64,000 bases of DNA from Photobacterium swingsii (GTDB lineage: Bacteria > Pseudomonadota > Gammaproteobacteria > Enterobacterales > Vibrionaceae): assembly GCF_024346715.1 (NCBI RefSeq), contig NZ_AP024852.1, positions 1,302,001-1,366,000 on the forward strand. The letters are read 5' to 3'. Shown here in pieces: positions 6,571 to 9,722 of this stretch. Position 1 is the stretch's first letter. Each line of letters opens with the position of its first letter. A program made the translations under genes and the position numbers. The notes below the pieces were generated by a model that worked only from the letters and a program-made list of their open reading frames with translations, was not told the origin of the DNA and ran no database searches.

Positions 6571-6874
6571 CGAGATTACCGCGCTTCGTTACTGAGTTTC
6601 AAAAGACTACATAGTTAGCCAATATGGTGAAACTATACTACCTCTGTGATTGTTACTCCTAGTGAATCGATCAATATCGGCATTCCTTTTTATTATAATT
6701 TGACAGGGATCGAGTTTTCTCTTTCAGAATTGAAAATAAAATGCGTTAAATCATCAATAATACGCGCGATTTGGCACTTATTCTGTTATTTAATTTCATA
6801 TTGTGGGAATTAATTTACAGCTTGAAATTAATAGTGCAGTTAATAATGCTTATTAGAGAATGAAAGGAAATATC
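6571..6874. other. Divergent promoter region between hexR and the YeeZ-like gene
   Basis: AT-rich and without an ORF. It holds the HexR-like site at 6628-6642 and a TTGACA hexamer at 6700-6705 followed by only a weak -10 (CAGAAT at 6725), which may serve the plus-strand gene. No terminator or structured element was seen. Confidence 0.5.
6628..6642 (-). promoter_or_regulatory. Weaker HexR-like site upstream of hexR
   Basis: TGAAACTATACTACC agrees with the recalled HexR consensus TGTARTWWWAYTACA at about 12 of 15 positions and lies about 60 bases before the hexR start. It would fit autoregulation but is weaker than the pykA site. Confidence 0.4.
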
Positions 6875-7711
6875 ATGAAAGTCAGTATTTGTGGATGTGG
6901 GTGGTTAGGGTTACCACTTGCCCATTATTTAAAAAATCAGGGAATGCAGGTACAGGGATCTAAGCGTACTCTCGCGGACGCACAAGCTCTTAGTCATAAC
7001 GGTATTCTCGGCTTTCCATTAGCATTGCCGTTGAACAAGGAAGCAGTAGAAGAACTGAATGACTTTTTTGATTGTGATGTGATGGTAGTGAATATCCCAC
7101 CAGGTCGAAAAACGTTGCTATCGGCACAGTACGCGCAATCTATTTTAATCTTGTGCGAAGAAGCCAAAAGAAAAGGGTGTCGAAGATTGATTTTTATCAG
7201 TACAACGTCCGTTTATGGTGACTGTACTGGTACCGTTTCTGAGAAGACGACTCCTATGCCGACGACAGAGTCAGGCAAGGCACATTATGAGATTGAACAA
7301 GGTTTGATGGCCTCTTGGGGTGAACAGGTCACTGTACTTAGACTTGCAGGTTTGATTGGTCCGAATAGGCACCCTGTTAAATTTTTATCAGGGCGTAGTA
7401 ACATTCAGCAAGGTGGGGCACCTGTTAACTTGATTCATCAGCAAGACTGTATTCGGGCGATAACGGCGATTATTCGTTCTCAGCCTGTGCAAAGTGTTTT
7501 CCATCTTGCTGCGAGCCAGCATCCTTCTCGAGCCGATTACTATACTGCGATGGCGAAATTAGCAGGGTTAGCGGTGCCAGAATTTACTGATAATTGTGGT
7601 GAGAATGAGAAACAAGTTGACGCTTTGTTTACCTGCGAACAGCTTGGTTTAGTGTTAGACAAAGATGATTTGATGCAGGTAAAACCTGAGCTAGATGACC
7701 TTAAGTATTAA
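6875..7711 (+). CDS. YeeZ-like NAD(P)-dependent epimerase/dehydratase family protein
   Basis: 278 residues. The N-terminal dinucleotide-binding motif is CGCGWLG and the SDR-type segment STTSVYGD is visible, but the usual YxxxK catalytic pair is not; E. coli YeeZ (274 residues) shows the same layout. The sequence LRLAGLIGPNRHP matches the family's NTP/sugar-side loop. The physiological substrate is unknown. The start at 6875 is chosen over the ATG at 6860 because AAGGAA sits five bases before it and MKVSICG begins the Rossmann strand. The gene converges on the first small RNA gene, whose terminator lies about 10 bases past its stop. Confidence 0.8.
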   Translation: MKVSICGCGWLGLPLAHYLKNQGMQVQGSKRTLADAQALSHNGILGFPLALPLNKEAVEELNDFFDCDVMVVNIPPGRKTLLSAQYAQSILILCEEAKRKGCRRLIFISTTSVYGDCTGTVSEKTTPMPTTESGKAHYEIEQGLMASWGEQVTVLRLAGLIGPNRHPVKFLSGRSNIQQGGAPVNLIHQQDCIRAITAIIRSQPVQSVFHLAASQHPSRADYYTAMAKLAGLAVPEFTDNCGENEKQVDALFTCEQLGLVLDKDDLMQVKPELDDLKY

Positions 7712-7720
7712 TTTTTAGAT

Positions 7721-7749
7721 AAAAAAACGCTGAGCAAAGGGCTCAGCGT
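7721..7749 (-). terminator. Terminator of sRNA copy 1
   Basis: Nine-base stem (7727-7735 with 7741-7749), five-base loop, and seven T residues on the minus strand. Confidence 0.9.
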
Positions 7750-7881
7750 GAATATCCAAAAAATTCGGAGTTTAAGCAGCAGTGGCAGTTCAAGATTAAA
7801 TGCATAAGGACTCAGTAGCACTTACCCATAACTAAAAACACATTAATAATTCAGTGATGGGTAAAGAATTAATCTCAATCT
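7721..7881 (-). ncRNA. Predicted sigma-E-dependent sRNA, copy 1 of 3
   Basis: Transcript of about 160 nt, with its start predicted six to eight bases after a sigma-E-type -10 (7888-7892). A 5' stem (TTACCCAT at 7857-7864 pairing with 7822-7829) precedes the conserved motif GCCACTGCTGCTTAAACTCC (minus strand, first base 7786). Downstream is an A/T-rich linker and a nine-base terminator stem (ACGCTGAGC/GCTCAGCGT) with seven T residues. There is no ORF shared between the copies. The motif matches the 5' end of enterobacterial RybB (GCCACUGCU...) as I recall it, and the layout recalls the sigma-E sRNAs VrrA and MicV of Vibrio. The 5' end is an inference. Confidence 0.82.
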
Positions 7882-7887
7882 ATATAA

Positions 7888-7914
7888 TATGACTTCACGA
7901 AATCAGCTTGGTTC
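7888..7914 (-). promoter_or_regulatory. Sigma-E-type promoter of sRNA copy 1
   Basis: Minus strand: -35 GAACCA (7909-7914), 16-base spacer, -10 TCATA (7888-7892). The same spacing recurs in copies 2 and 3. The sigma-E consensus is GGAACTT, about 16 bases, TCAAA/TCTGA. Confidence 0.8.
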
Positions 7915-7995
7915 AAAATAATTTCAGAAAAAATGATATTTTAATGGTTCGGTGCTTTTTAGGTGATGAAGGGAACTTTTTTGTGCATAAAGCGT

Positions 7996-8026
7996 AAAAA
8001 AATCCCGCTGAGTCCTCAGCGGGATT
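7996..8026 (-). terminator. Terminator of sRNA copy 2
   Basis: Twelve-base perfect stem (8001-8012 with 8015-8026) with a T run on the minus strand. Confidence 0.92.
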
Positions 8027-8132
8027 ACCAAACGGTATAATTCATTTACACAAAATAAGGAGTTTTAGCAGCAGTGGCATCAATGATTAATGATGAAAAC
8101 ACTCTTTTTGCATCACCATTAATTTGAATGTC
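7996..8132 (-). ncRNA. Predicted sigma-E-dependent sRNA, copy 2 of 3
   Basis: About 137 nt. It has the same plan as copy 1: sigma-E promoter at 8139-8165, a foldable 5' part (an AATTAATGGTGATG-type segment pairing imperfectly with CATCATTAAT just upstream of the motif), the conserved motif GCCACTGCTGCTAAAACTCC starting at 8078, a TTATTTTGTGTAAAT stretch shared with copy 3, and a 12-base terminator stem with seven T residues. Copies 2 and 3 are more alike downstream of the motif than either is to copy 1. The 5' end is predicted from the promoter, not mapped. Confidence 0.83.
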
Positions 8133-8138
8133 ATATAT

Positions 8139-8165
8139 TCAGACTGGCTGTTTTCAGAATGGTTC
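8139..8165 (-). promoter_or_regulatory. Sigma-E-type promoter of sRNA copy 2
   Basis: Minus strand: -35 GGAACCA (GAACCA at 8160-8165), 16-base spacer, -10 TCTGA (8139-8143). This is the best match of the three to the sigma-E consensus. Confidence 0.83.
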
Positions 8166-8244
8166 CAATAAATTTAAAAAAAGATTCAAAAAAGCTAAAA
8201 ACCATTAAATATCAGCTGCTTAGTGTTTTGCCTGCTTTGTGGGT

Positions 8245-8273
8245 AAAAAAAAGCCCACTAACATTGAGTGGGC
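8245..8273 (-). terminator. Terminator of sRNA copy 3
   Basis: Seven-base GC-rich stem (GCCCACT/AGTGGGC) followed by eight T residues on the minus strand. Confidence 0.88.
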
Positions 8274-8383
8274 GAAGCTCTATTTACACAATTAGGAGTT
8301 AAGCAGCAGTGGCATCGTAGATTGAAGAGAAGAATGCGTGTTGGCGGCCTGCGAACAATTCATATATCGTCAATCTTAATGTC
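8245..8383 (-). ncRNA. Predicted sigma-E-dependent sRNA, copy 3 of 3
   Basis: About 139 nt. The promoter is at 8390-8416. A long-range seven-base pairing (AGATTGA near 8370-8376 with TCAATCT just upstream of the motif) encloses a GC-richer loop. It is followed by the motif GCCACTGCTGCTTAACTCC starting at 8313, a TAATTGTGTAAAT stretch, a seven-base terminator stem and eight T residues. It is the most upstream copy in the minus direction and lies divergently from the M20 peptidase gene. Any plus-strand ORF here (for example 8268-8459) is a shadow. Confidence 0.82.
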
Positions 8384-8389
8384 ACTATA

Positions 8390-8416
8390 TATGACTGGTG
8401 TTTATCGGCTTAGTTC
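8390..8416 (-). promoter_or_regulatory. Sigma-E-type promoter of sRNA copy 3
   Basis: Minus strand: -35 GAACTA (8411-8416), 16-base spacer, -10 TCATA (8390-8394). The spacer is similar to those of copies 1 and 2 near its ends (AGC at the -35 side, CAG at the -10 side). Confidence 0.8.
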
Positions 8417-8597
8417 AAAGAAATTATCTAAATTTATAGTTTTTATTTTAACTTCATGATTTTAAATTGAATTTAAAGCAAGGCTATTTCTGTTCTGCAA
8501 AAAATGATGTAAATCAGGGTTTATCTTGTCGCGCTCTGCCACTATGCCTGCTCATATTGTTGTAAAGACAGTCTCTATGTCGTTAAAGGAGAATGCG

Positions 8598-9722
8598 ATG
8601 ACTCAGAGTTTTTCGCTGAATACGTACCTTGAGCAATTAGCACAATTAGTGAATATCGATTGTGGTAGCCACACCCCAACAGGCATTGCGCAGGTGGCAG
8701 ATGTACTTACCCCTATGTTTGAATCTCTTGGCTTTACGGTGAGCCGTCATCAGCCTCATCCCGATTCCGGGCCATGTCTGGCAATCACCAATAAACCAGA
8801 TGCTGAGCATTATGATGTAATGCTGAGTGGTCATATGGACACAGTATTTCCTGTCGGCACTGTCGCCGAACGTCCTATGACCTTTGATGATGAGAAGGTG
8901 TATGGCCCTGGCGCAACTGATATGAAGTCAGGCATTCTGAGCGCATGGTATGCATTAAAAGCGCTCACTGACGAAGAACGTTCCCGCCTTGCGATTGTGG
9001 TTGTTTTGAATTGCGATGAAGAAATTGGTTCTATCTATTCTCGTGAGTGGCTGGAAGGCTTTGCACGTAAGAGCCGCCAAGTCTTGGTTTGTGAAGCATC
9101 ACGCCCAACAGGTAACTTAATCCGCTCTCGTAAGGGTAATGCTAAGTACGAAATTGAATTCCACGGTGTAGCTTCTCATGCTGGCTCTGCATTGGCTGAT
9201 GGTGTAAATGCAATTTATGAATTAAGCCACTGGTCATTAGCCATTAAAAATATGGTTAACCTCGAAACGGGCACCACTATGAATGTGGGTGTGATTGAAG
9301 GTGGTATGGCTGTCAATGTTGTTCCTGATTACGCGAAAGCAACTGTAGACCTGCGTTTTTGGAATACCGATGAAGCAGAAACGATCCACGAAAAGCTATT
9401 AGCAATGGCTGAAGCACCATTTGAAGCGGGCGCGAGTGTGACGGTCAACCGAGTGACTTTCAAGCCTTCGATGCAGCCTTCAAGCGATACTGAAGCACTG
9501 ATCAAACTTGTTAGTGAAGAAGCTGATAAGCTGAATATTGTGTATGGCTGGGAAGATGCAGGTGGTGGTTCCGATGGTAACTTCACTGCGGCACTTGGCA
9601 CACCGACATTGGATGGTTTTGGTCCTATGGGGGCTGGCTTCCACAGTGATAAAGAATATCTGTTGATTGATTCGATTGCGCCTCGCATTGAGCTGTTAGC
9701 AAATACGCTACGCCGTTTGTAG
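8598..9722 (+). CDS. M20 family metallopeptidase (glutamate carboxypeptidase/CPG2-like)
   Basis: 374 residues, a usual M20 length. Zinc-site residues are visible: His79 and Asp81 (SGHMDT), bridging Asp108 (GATDMKSG), catalytic Glu141-Glu142 (CDEEIGS), Glu in CEASRP, and His in GFHSDKEY. The lid-domain residue in SHAGSA is also present. The family hydrolyses C-terminal glutamate or similar residues from small peptides and folates; the true substrate here cannot be told from sequence. There is no signal peptide, so it is cytoplasmic. The start at 8598 is chosen because AAAGGAG precedes it by six bases; the longer in-frame start at 8526 has no ribosome binding site. Confidence 0.85.
   Translation: MTQSFSLNTYLEQLAQLVNIDCGSHTPTGIAQVADVLTPMFESLGFTVSRHQPHPDSGPCLAITNKPDAEHYDVMLSGHMDTVFPVGTVAERPMTFDDEKVYGPGATDMKSGILSAWYALKALTDEERSRLAIVVVLNCDEEIGSIYSREWLEGFARKSRQVLVCEASRPTGNLIRSRKGNAKYEIEFHGVASHAGSALADGVNAIYELSHWSLAIKNMVNLETGTTMNVGVIEGGMAVNVVPDYAKATVDLRFWNTDEAETIHEKLLAMAEAPFEAGASVTVNRVTFKPSMQPSSDTEALIKLVSEEADKLNIVYGWEDAGGGSDGNFTAALGTPTLDGFGPMGAGFHSDKEYLLIDSIAPRIELLANTLRRL

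Follow-up and report, generated by a model that had tools for sequence, protein, structure and literature searches.

What are the three similar units that stand one behind another on the minus strand of Photobacterium swingsii between an epimerase-like and a peptidase gene, and what might they do together? They occupy positions 7721-8416 of a 64,000-nucleotide stretch of contig NZ_AP024852.1 (assembly GCF_024346715.1, positions 1,302,001 to 1,366,000 of the forward strand), hereafter the window. A first-pass annotation had described three minus-strand units, each with a GAACYA-N16-TCWKA promoter, a body and a T7 or T8 terminator, as a triplicated family of small RNA (sRNA) genes of the sigma-E envelope-stress response, and had recommended comparing them with Rfam and with related genomes. 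All these parts are found where it had placed them. From comparison with homologues we read the locus as a probable sigma-E-driven, multi-copy array of repressors of outer-membrane proteins, homologous to the sRNA VrrA, and put the probability of this reading at roughly 0.86.

Each unit combines the element GAAC-N18-TCnnA with a body of 138-162 nt and a terminator (Table 1). The bodies measure 139 nt in unit A, 138 nt in unit B and about 162 nt in unit C, and a terminator scan recovers all three terminators, with T-runs of T8, T7 and T7, respectively. The strongest feature that the three units share, beyond those of the first-pass annotation, is TGCCACTGCTGCT, followed after one to three bases by ACTCC; GCCACTGCTGCT, a piece of TGCCACTGCTGCT, occurs without mismatch at exactly three places in the window, one per unit. 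Successive promoters are spaced exactly 251 bases apart, twice, and 250 bases apart, twice, in two close relatives, a regularity not found in a third relative (G017); the equal spacing is probably a coincidence. The terminator of unit C ends ten bases from the stop codon of the epimerase-like gene.

With one mismatch allowed, the promoter pattern has 9 matches in the window against 6.7 expected by chance; taken alone it is no rarer than chance would have it, so the case for the units rests on conservation. Comparison with homologues rules chance out for the three units. This comparison used R1, a covariance model made from Photobacterium units only and with the promoter excluded, whose training set includes units A, B and C. 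On stretches fetched from 40 of the 51 genomes of the genus with an epimerase match, R1 identified 111 units, recovering some that the pattern had overlooked, among them one in G133 and a third copy in six cases. The element GAAC-N18-TCnnA lies within 60 bases upstream of 105 of these 111 units, where shuffles average 1.0 and never exceed 4. The test is partly circular, because the training units were first chosen with the promoter pattern. Wherever the element is present its gap is 18 bases, although 16-19 were allowed, and the same element with the same spacing precedes 8/8 vrrA loci. The other six units are third copies of one lineage (L065-L068, L075 and L077) that, by eye, have a promoter-like element farther upstream and a different leader. 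The window genome encodes a full-length RpoE (one match above the curated cut-off, 347 bits). A fourth exact match to GAACYA-N16-TCWKA, at 7924-7950 on the minus strand, stands just upstream of the unit C promoter; it was rejected as a fourth promoter and is probably due to chance, its GAAC reading GAAG in two close relatives.

Where do such units belong among known sRNAs? In the Rfam comparison no unit reaches any gathering score. The VrrA family RF01456, with a gathering score of 50 bits, has no match at that score in the window or in 11 related Photobacterium loci, and its best match in the genus, a unit of G117 beside the epimerase, scores 34.6 bits, below the threshold. At permissive E-values the best matches in the array, ncr1575 (27.1 bits) and Hrs12 (24.2 bits), were rejected as far below their cut-offs. 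In the opposite direction, R1 matches 8/8 of the vrrA loci given to it, which were the eight best RF01456 loci, at 33.7-45.9 bits (E 7.5e-6 to 1.6e-3). These loci come from one genus, g12, presumably Vibrio, the genus to which the RF01456 family belongs; when 247 genomes of the order were searched with R1, the matches were the window genome and three of g12.

Motif content points the same way. GGCCGY is present in all eight VrrA sequences inspected from the other genus and in exactly one unit of 38/40 Photobacterium arrays, at a shuffle rate of 0.7% per unit; G064 has two, and G133 had none by the first pattern, the unit at first overlooked there being the one that carries it. In the window array unit A has the motif and units B and C lack it. 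The ACTGC and ACTCCT blocks match the pairing regions of V. cholerae VrrA by motif and order, not base by base. In that RNA the partner of residues 69-78 is ompT, and for the ACUCCU block at 91-96 pairing with the rbmC Shine-Dalgarno sequence was predicted (PMC4108314). Together, the covariance-model matches in both directions, the neighbourhood described below and the motif content show that the units are homologues of the sigma-E-dependent sRNA VrrA.

Table 1. Predicted features of the array and its flanking genes, in window coordinates
Feature	Position	Strand	Basis
Unit A, sigma-E-type promoter GAACTA-N16-TCATA	8390..8416	-	Motif; spacing as in 105/111 homologous units
Unit A, putative sRNA, canonical VrrA-type with GGCCGY loop, ~139 nt	8246..8384	-	R1 107 bits, E 1.6e-17 (in training set)
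Unit A, apical motif GCAGGCCGCCAACAC	8338..8352	-	Common to VrrA of other genera
Unit A, pairing region TGCCACTGCTGCTTAACTCC (RybB-type seed and anti-Shine-Dalgarno block)	8295..8314	-	Motif/alignment
Unit A, intrinsic terminator	8245..8273	-	Terminator scan; stem changes on both sides in 8/9 pairs (45 units)
Unit B, sigma-E-type promoter GAACCA-N16-TCTGA	8139..8165	-	Motif, spacing
Unit B, putative sRNA, derived copy without GGCCGY loop, ~138 nt	7996..8133	-	R1 93 bits (in training set)
Unit B, pairing region TGCCACTGCTGCTAAAACTCC	8059..8079	-	Motif
Unit B, intrinsic terminator	7996..8026	-	Terminator scan
Unit C, sigma-E-type promoter GAACCA-N16-TCATA	7888..7914	-	Motif, spacing
Unit C, putative sRNA, derived, long 5' hairpin, without GGCCGY loop, ~162 nt	7721..7882	-	R1 58.4 bits over 7720-7859 (in training set)
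Unit C, pairing region TGCCACTGCTGCTTAAACTCC	7767..7787	-	Motif
Unit C, intrinsic terminator	7721..7749	-	Terminator scan
NAD-dependent epimerase-like gene, array flank	6860..7711	+	Pfam PF01370
M20 peptidase gene, other array flank	8595..9722	+	Pfam PF01546, PF07687

The units also share a shape, in which a 5' hairpin (for example, ATTAAAG...CTTTAAT) is followed by the seed and the ACTCC block and then by the terminator hairpin. Of 104 units collected by pattern, filtering by length and at 80% identity left 46, of which 45 were aligned (alignment A2). With a hand-written consensus structure, 79.1% of the cells of these 45 units are paired; shuffles reach 70.5%, and sliding the structure along the alignment gives 37-47%, a slide control biased in its favour because the structure was written from single-sequence folds. 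Changes on both sides occur in 18/24 pairs, and the covariation score is 0.275 against 0.154 in shuffles, 0/500 of which score as high, a control that is not to be taken as a probability. A covarying 5' hairpin precedes the seed. Terminator sequences vary across the aligned units while their stem pairing stays, and single-sequence folds of the 5' domain have a mean z of -2.0 over 100 distinct units. RNAalifold predicted no pairs on a MAFFT alignment of the 45 units, which we put down to hairpins of widely differing length. The predicted unpaired fraction of the seed is 0.51 in unit A, 0.67 in unit B and 0.83 in unit C; in some units the outer part of the 5' helix is predicted to mask the first seed bases.

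On the mechanism that we propose, each unit would be transcribed separately from its own sigma-E promoter to its own intrinsic terminator, yielding an RNA that begins with the 5' hairpin and closes with a terminator hairpin and U tail, the pairing region of about 25 nt between them being left partly to mostly unpaired. The pairing region would consist of a RybB-type seed, UGCCACUGCUGCU, and the anti-Shine-Dalgarno block AACUCCU. When misfolded outer-membrane proteins cause sigma-E to be released, the RNAs would build up and base-pair at the translation-initiation regions of ompA, porin and perhaps TonB-dependent receptor mRNAs, blocking ribosome entry and lowering the envelope load. Hfq binding, repression of the targets and additive dosage of the copies are predicted parts of this scheme. 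A RybB-type (MicV-like) partner gene, whose 5' end has this seed too, lies at the tetR-fadE site of the window genome. The view of the array as a set of outer-membrane-protein repressors draws on analogy with VrrA and MicV. Expression of VrrA requires sigma-E, and VrrA blocks 30S binding on ompA mRNA and represses ompA (PMC2628432); MicV has the seed of VrrA (PMC7602753).

Candidate target leaders carry matching sequences. AGTGG, at -48 to -20, is present in 22/32 ompA leaders, that of the window genome (L273) included, against a shuffle mean of 0.69; the 32 were parsed from 35 loci (L243, L244 and L253 dropped), and L274, a second OmpA-family gene of the window genome, was left out of the count. 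The top-scoring of 11 PF13609 porin matches has ggcagtgg at the Shine-Dalgarno sequence in 29/29 genes of the genus (29 of 30 loci parsed, L281 dropped), and in 25/29 of these leaders the full taagaaaaggcagtgg, a near-exact complement of the 5' end of the RybB-type sRNA. Pairing of this leader with the RybB-type sRNA has a mean predicted energy of -25.0 kcal/mol against -12.6 for shuffled sequences, 26/29 lying at or below -20; the VrrA-type seed pairs with it more weakly, at -16.8 against -13.9 in shuffles. The leader (L279-L308) is nearly invariant across the genus, about 16 of its bases being complementary to the RybB-type 5' end. Since this conservation extends over the entire leader, it is not by itself proof that pairing has been selected for.

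Among other genes of the window genome, AGCAGTGGC occurs at +23 of a porin gene and at +17 of a TonB-dependent receptor gene, and the porin leader L233 has TTAGGAGTTA, the complement of the ACTCC block. Across the genome AGCAGTGGC occurs at 74 places, 4/74 being the sRNA genes themselves, and the reversed pattern at 30; most of the 74 are away from annotated-like starts as called automatically, and the excess may in good part reflect codon usage. At L204 (C2:862871), CAGCAGTGGCA stands 34 bases upstream of a gene for a predicted small exported protein, a possible further target.

Several observations weigh against this reading. RF01456 has no match in the window genome, and raising the E limit to 5 brings up no VrrA match within the array. 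Many genomes with good RF01456 scores (for example, G012, 91.3 bits, and G025, 105.3 bits) have a vrrA that R1 fails to find under strict filters, so the two are distant. The seed of unit A is predicted to be only half unpaired, and at least five single-copy genomes have a 5' domain no more stable than shuffled sequence, with z close to zero or above it. The ompA leaders without AGTGG in the stated interval number 10/32. Predicted energies of the VrrA-type seed on the genome's own porin leaders fall mostly within the range of 43 control genes, the top-scoring porin reaching -16.9 against a control mean of -14.1 and a best control of -21.7. For rbmC, VrrA residues 100-102 counted for more than the ACUCCU block in the published test (PMC4108314). 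Finally, the support as a whole consists of sequence comparison.

How widely is the array distributed, and how old are its copies? Scanning one genome per species, 84,980 species in all, for the core pattern returned 21 stretches, all from Photobacterium. The family search with R1 covered, under strict filters, 159 genomes (52 of Photobacterium and 107 of other genera). Homologous units were found in 49/52 Photobacterium genomes, with 1-7 matches each and at least two in 43/49; these copy counts are lower bounds, laxer filters adding a third unit in six genomes. The three genomes without a match (G124, G134 and G136) are 74-85% complete. In the other genera 22/107 genomes match, with exactly one unit each. 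All three matches in the 5.65-Mb window genome fall in the array, and at least one unit lies downstream of the epimerase in 40/40 fetched Photobacterium stretches. The seven-copy count of G087 spans two contigs (L227 at the end of C39, L228 at the start of C5) and hinges on an assembly break in the array. One genome of another genus, G029, is the sole one outside Photobacterium with two RF01456 matches; both are weak (36.8 and 33.9 bits) and they lie on two contigs.

Compared with one another, the 5' domains of the three window units reach at best 54-56% identity; compared with the unit in the same position, they reach 90-96% in the nearest relative, G089, and 69-90% in G017. Outside the window genome, unit B is matched best by the second units of G089 and G017, and unit C by their third units; for a tandem-repeat finder the window array is too diverged. 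Judging from these identities, the copies of the window species are old and diverged, and units B and C would be old duplicates that kept promoter, seed and terminator while their 5' hairpin was altered. In G131 and G082, copies 2-6 have within-genome best matches of 95-100%, with a period of 255 bases in G131. Because the copies of the window species are diverged and these nearly identical, the array is both ancient and, in places, recently amplified. The first-pass reading of an envelope-stress sRNA family is thus supported in the form of a VrrA-related family, but 'triplicated' was too narrow a term for 1-7 copies that include old, diverged ones.

The same divergence feeds the alternative that survives best, which we consider possible although the less probable choice: that units B and C are specialised RNAs rather than dosage copies, having kept the seed while new 5' hairpins changed stability, timing, Hfq affinity or targets, or made them sponges. 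It would explain why the 5' domains resemble same-position units of G089 far more than one another, a sign of three copies kept apart, and why the GGCCGY loop is confined to unit A. Yet all three copies retain seed, promoter and terminator, and the nearly identical copies of G131 and G082 fit dosage or recent amplification.

The units also share a gene neighbourhood with vrrA. The order in Photobacterium is fadE, tetR, a RybB-type sRNA gene, in some genomes an M20 peptidase gene, the VrrA-type units and the epimerase gene. The 40 stretches of the genus contain tetR in 35/40, fadE in 37/40, the M20 gene in 8/40 and the RybB-type gene in 33/40; the epimerase, matched in 51/52 genomes of the genus, adjoins the units in 40/40. 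Five relatives have the M20 gene between the array and the RybB-type gene (L047, L064, L069, L076 and L085). In g12, vrrA stands beside tetR and fadE in 3/3 loci tested. In the window genome the array is found with the epimerase and M20 genes, and fadE, tetR and the RybB-type gene lie 1.27 Mb away (C1:2573000-2582000, L182), the ancestral locus having been broken beside the M20 gene by a rearrangement. The RybB-type gene there has its own promoter, at C1:2576904.

R2, a model of the RybB type made from 25 units, matches 140/159 of the family genomes, nine of them twice, the window genome included. The second match in the window genome (C2:1167328, 39.1 bits) was set aside, with no sigma-E-like element in the sequence read. 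A second alternative, that the units are tandem RybB or MicV genes and no relatives of VrrA, draws on the seed GCCACTGCT, which is of the RybB type, and on cross-matches between R1 and R2, which exist but are weak, at most 28.4 bits. However, 49/52 genomes of the genus have a match to a RybB-type gene of its own, in which the seed is 5'-terminal; units A, B and C carry the seed behind a hairpin, 75, 59 and 100 nt, respectively, downstream of the -10 element; and a model made from such units finds vrrA. We therefore regard this alternative as improbable and keep to homology with VrrA.

The RybB-type sRNA itself is probably MicV. In six genomes of other genera, picked for suggested adjacency, a RybB-type and a VrrA-type gene share a strand, separated by 66-279 bases and adjoined by tetR, and the epimerase is also at the locus in four; in one of the six, G008, the R1 match is weak (23.8 bits) and RF01456 scores 60.5 bits. 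The stretch from G009 (L225), a genome outside Photobacterium, contains the RybB-type gene along with tetR and fadE and no VrrA-type match. In the g12 genomes compared (for example, G090, G062, G092 and G370), the RybB-type gene and vrrA are on different contigs or several hundred kilobases apart. One g12 RybB-type gene read closely has a GAAC...TCTA element; the open reading frame (ORF) beside it we take to be argH, which fits the location of MicV. We infer from these loci that MicV and VrrA had a shared origin at the fadE-tetR locus. A fuller scenario, which we hold tentatively and at somewhat less than even odds, would make them tandem paralogues of one RybB-like ancestor there: VrrA would have gained a 5' hairpin, Vibrio parted the two, and Photobacterium arrayed the VrrA half, selection keeping one GGCCGY copy while its siblings multiplied and diverged, so that copy number tuned the non-coding sigma-E arm.

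A further alternative would see palindromic intergenic repeats, or a termination zone, instead of sRNA genes. Tandem strong terminators between genes, one of them so close to the epimerase stop codon, are what it would predict, but promoter, seed and covarying 5' hairpin are conserved as well, terminator sequence differs while stem pairing is kept, R1 finds just three copies in the genome, and the homologues include vrrA, a proven sRNA gene (PMC2628432); we consider it very improbable. Least probable of all, and rejected on its indel pattern, is that the core is a mini-ORF (ATG CCA CTG CTG CTW AAC TCC TAA, MPLLLNS) and not a seed: it is open in unit A, and a frame-keeping 2-base gap in CCACTGCTGCT-ACTCCT is found in 50/73 parsed units (of the 104), but the gap is 1, 3 or 4 bases in 23/73, breaking the frame, ATG precedes CCACTG in only 52/73, units B and C do not keep the frame, and the upstream stretch is a hairpin arm with no Shine-Dalgarno sequence by eye.

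The kind of RNA proposed here, a VrrA-like sigma-E-dependent sRNA, is known. What appears to be new is the tandem expansion across the genus, the combination of one canonical with derived copies, and the pairing of a RybB-type (probably MicV) gene with VrrA; priority is uncertain, as among the open-literature titles and abstract openings listed, a scope outside which the main MicV paper falls, there was no description of VrrA-type sRNAs in Photobacterium or of vrrA arrays. One listed paper that contains the names Photobacterium and VrrA together with sRNA is on a V. anguillarum genome (PMC10059132). Arrays of 1-7 tandem copies, nearly always with one canonical member, would allow dosage, seed sharing and 5'-domain divergence to be told apart under selection, and the seed common to MicV and VrrA could have its origin in a RybB-type/VrrA pair at a single locus.

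The closest known system is VrrA of Vibrio (RF01456), which the units resemble in their sigma-E-type promoter, length of about 140 nt, 5' hairpin, internal pairing region and terminator, in the ACTGC and ACTCCT blocks, in the GGCCGY loop of unit A, in the tetR-fadE neighbourhood seen in relatives and in complementarity to ompA leaders. They differ from it in scoring below the Rfam threshold, in standing in tandem (three here, 1-7 in the genus) rather than singly, in a seed extended to GCCACTGCTGC, in the missing loop of units B and C, and in the separation of the window array from tetR-fadE. With MicV and RybB they share the kind of promoter and the seed GCCACTGCT, MicV having the kind of seed found in VrrA and RybB (PMC7602753). 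Unlike the units, whose seed is internal, RybB-type genes are short and have a 5'-terminal seed. As families of sibling RNAs, the Qrr1-5 sRNAs of Vibrio likewise have a common seed and act redundantly or additively, but they serve quorum sensing, depend on sigma-54 and are dispersed, not tandem; the LhrC1-5 RNAs of Listeria are not known to be related to the units in sequence. LhrC is nevertheless alike in being a multi-copy, envelope-stress-induced sRNA whose copies are probably additive, and unlike in answering to the LisRK two-component system rather than to a sigma factor (PMC4132741).

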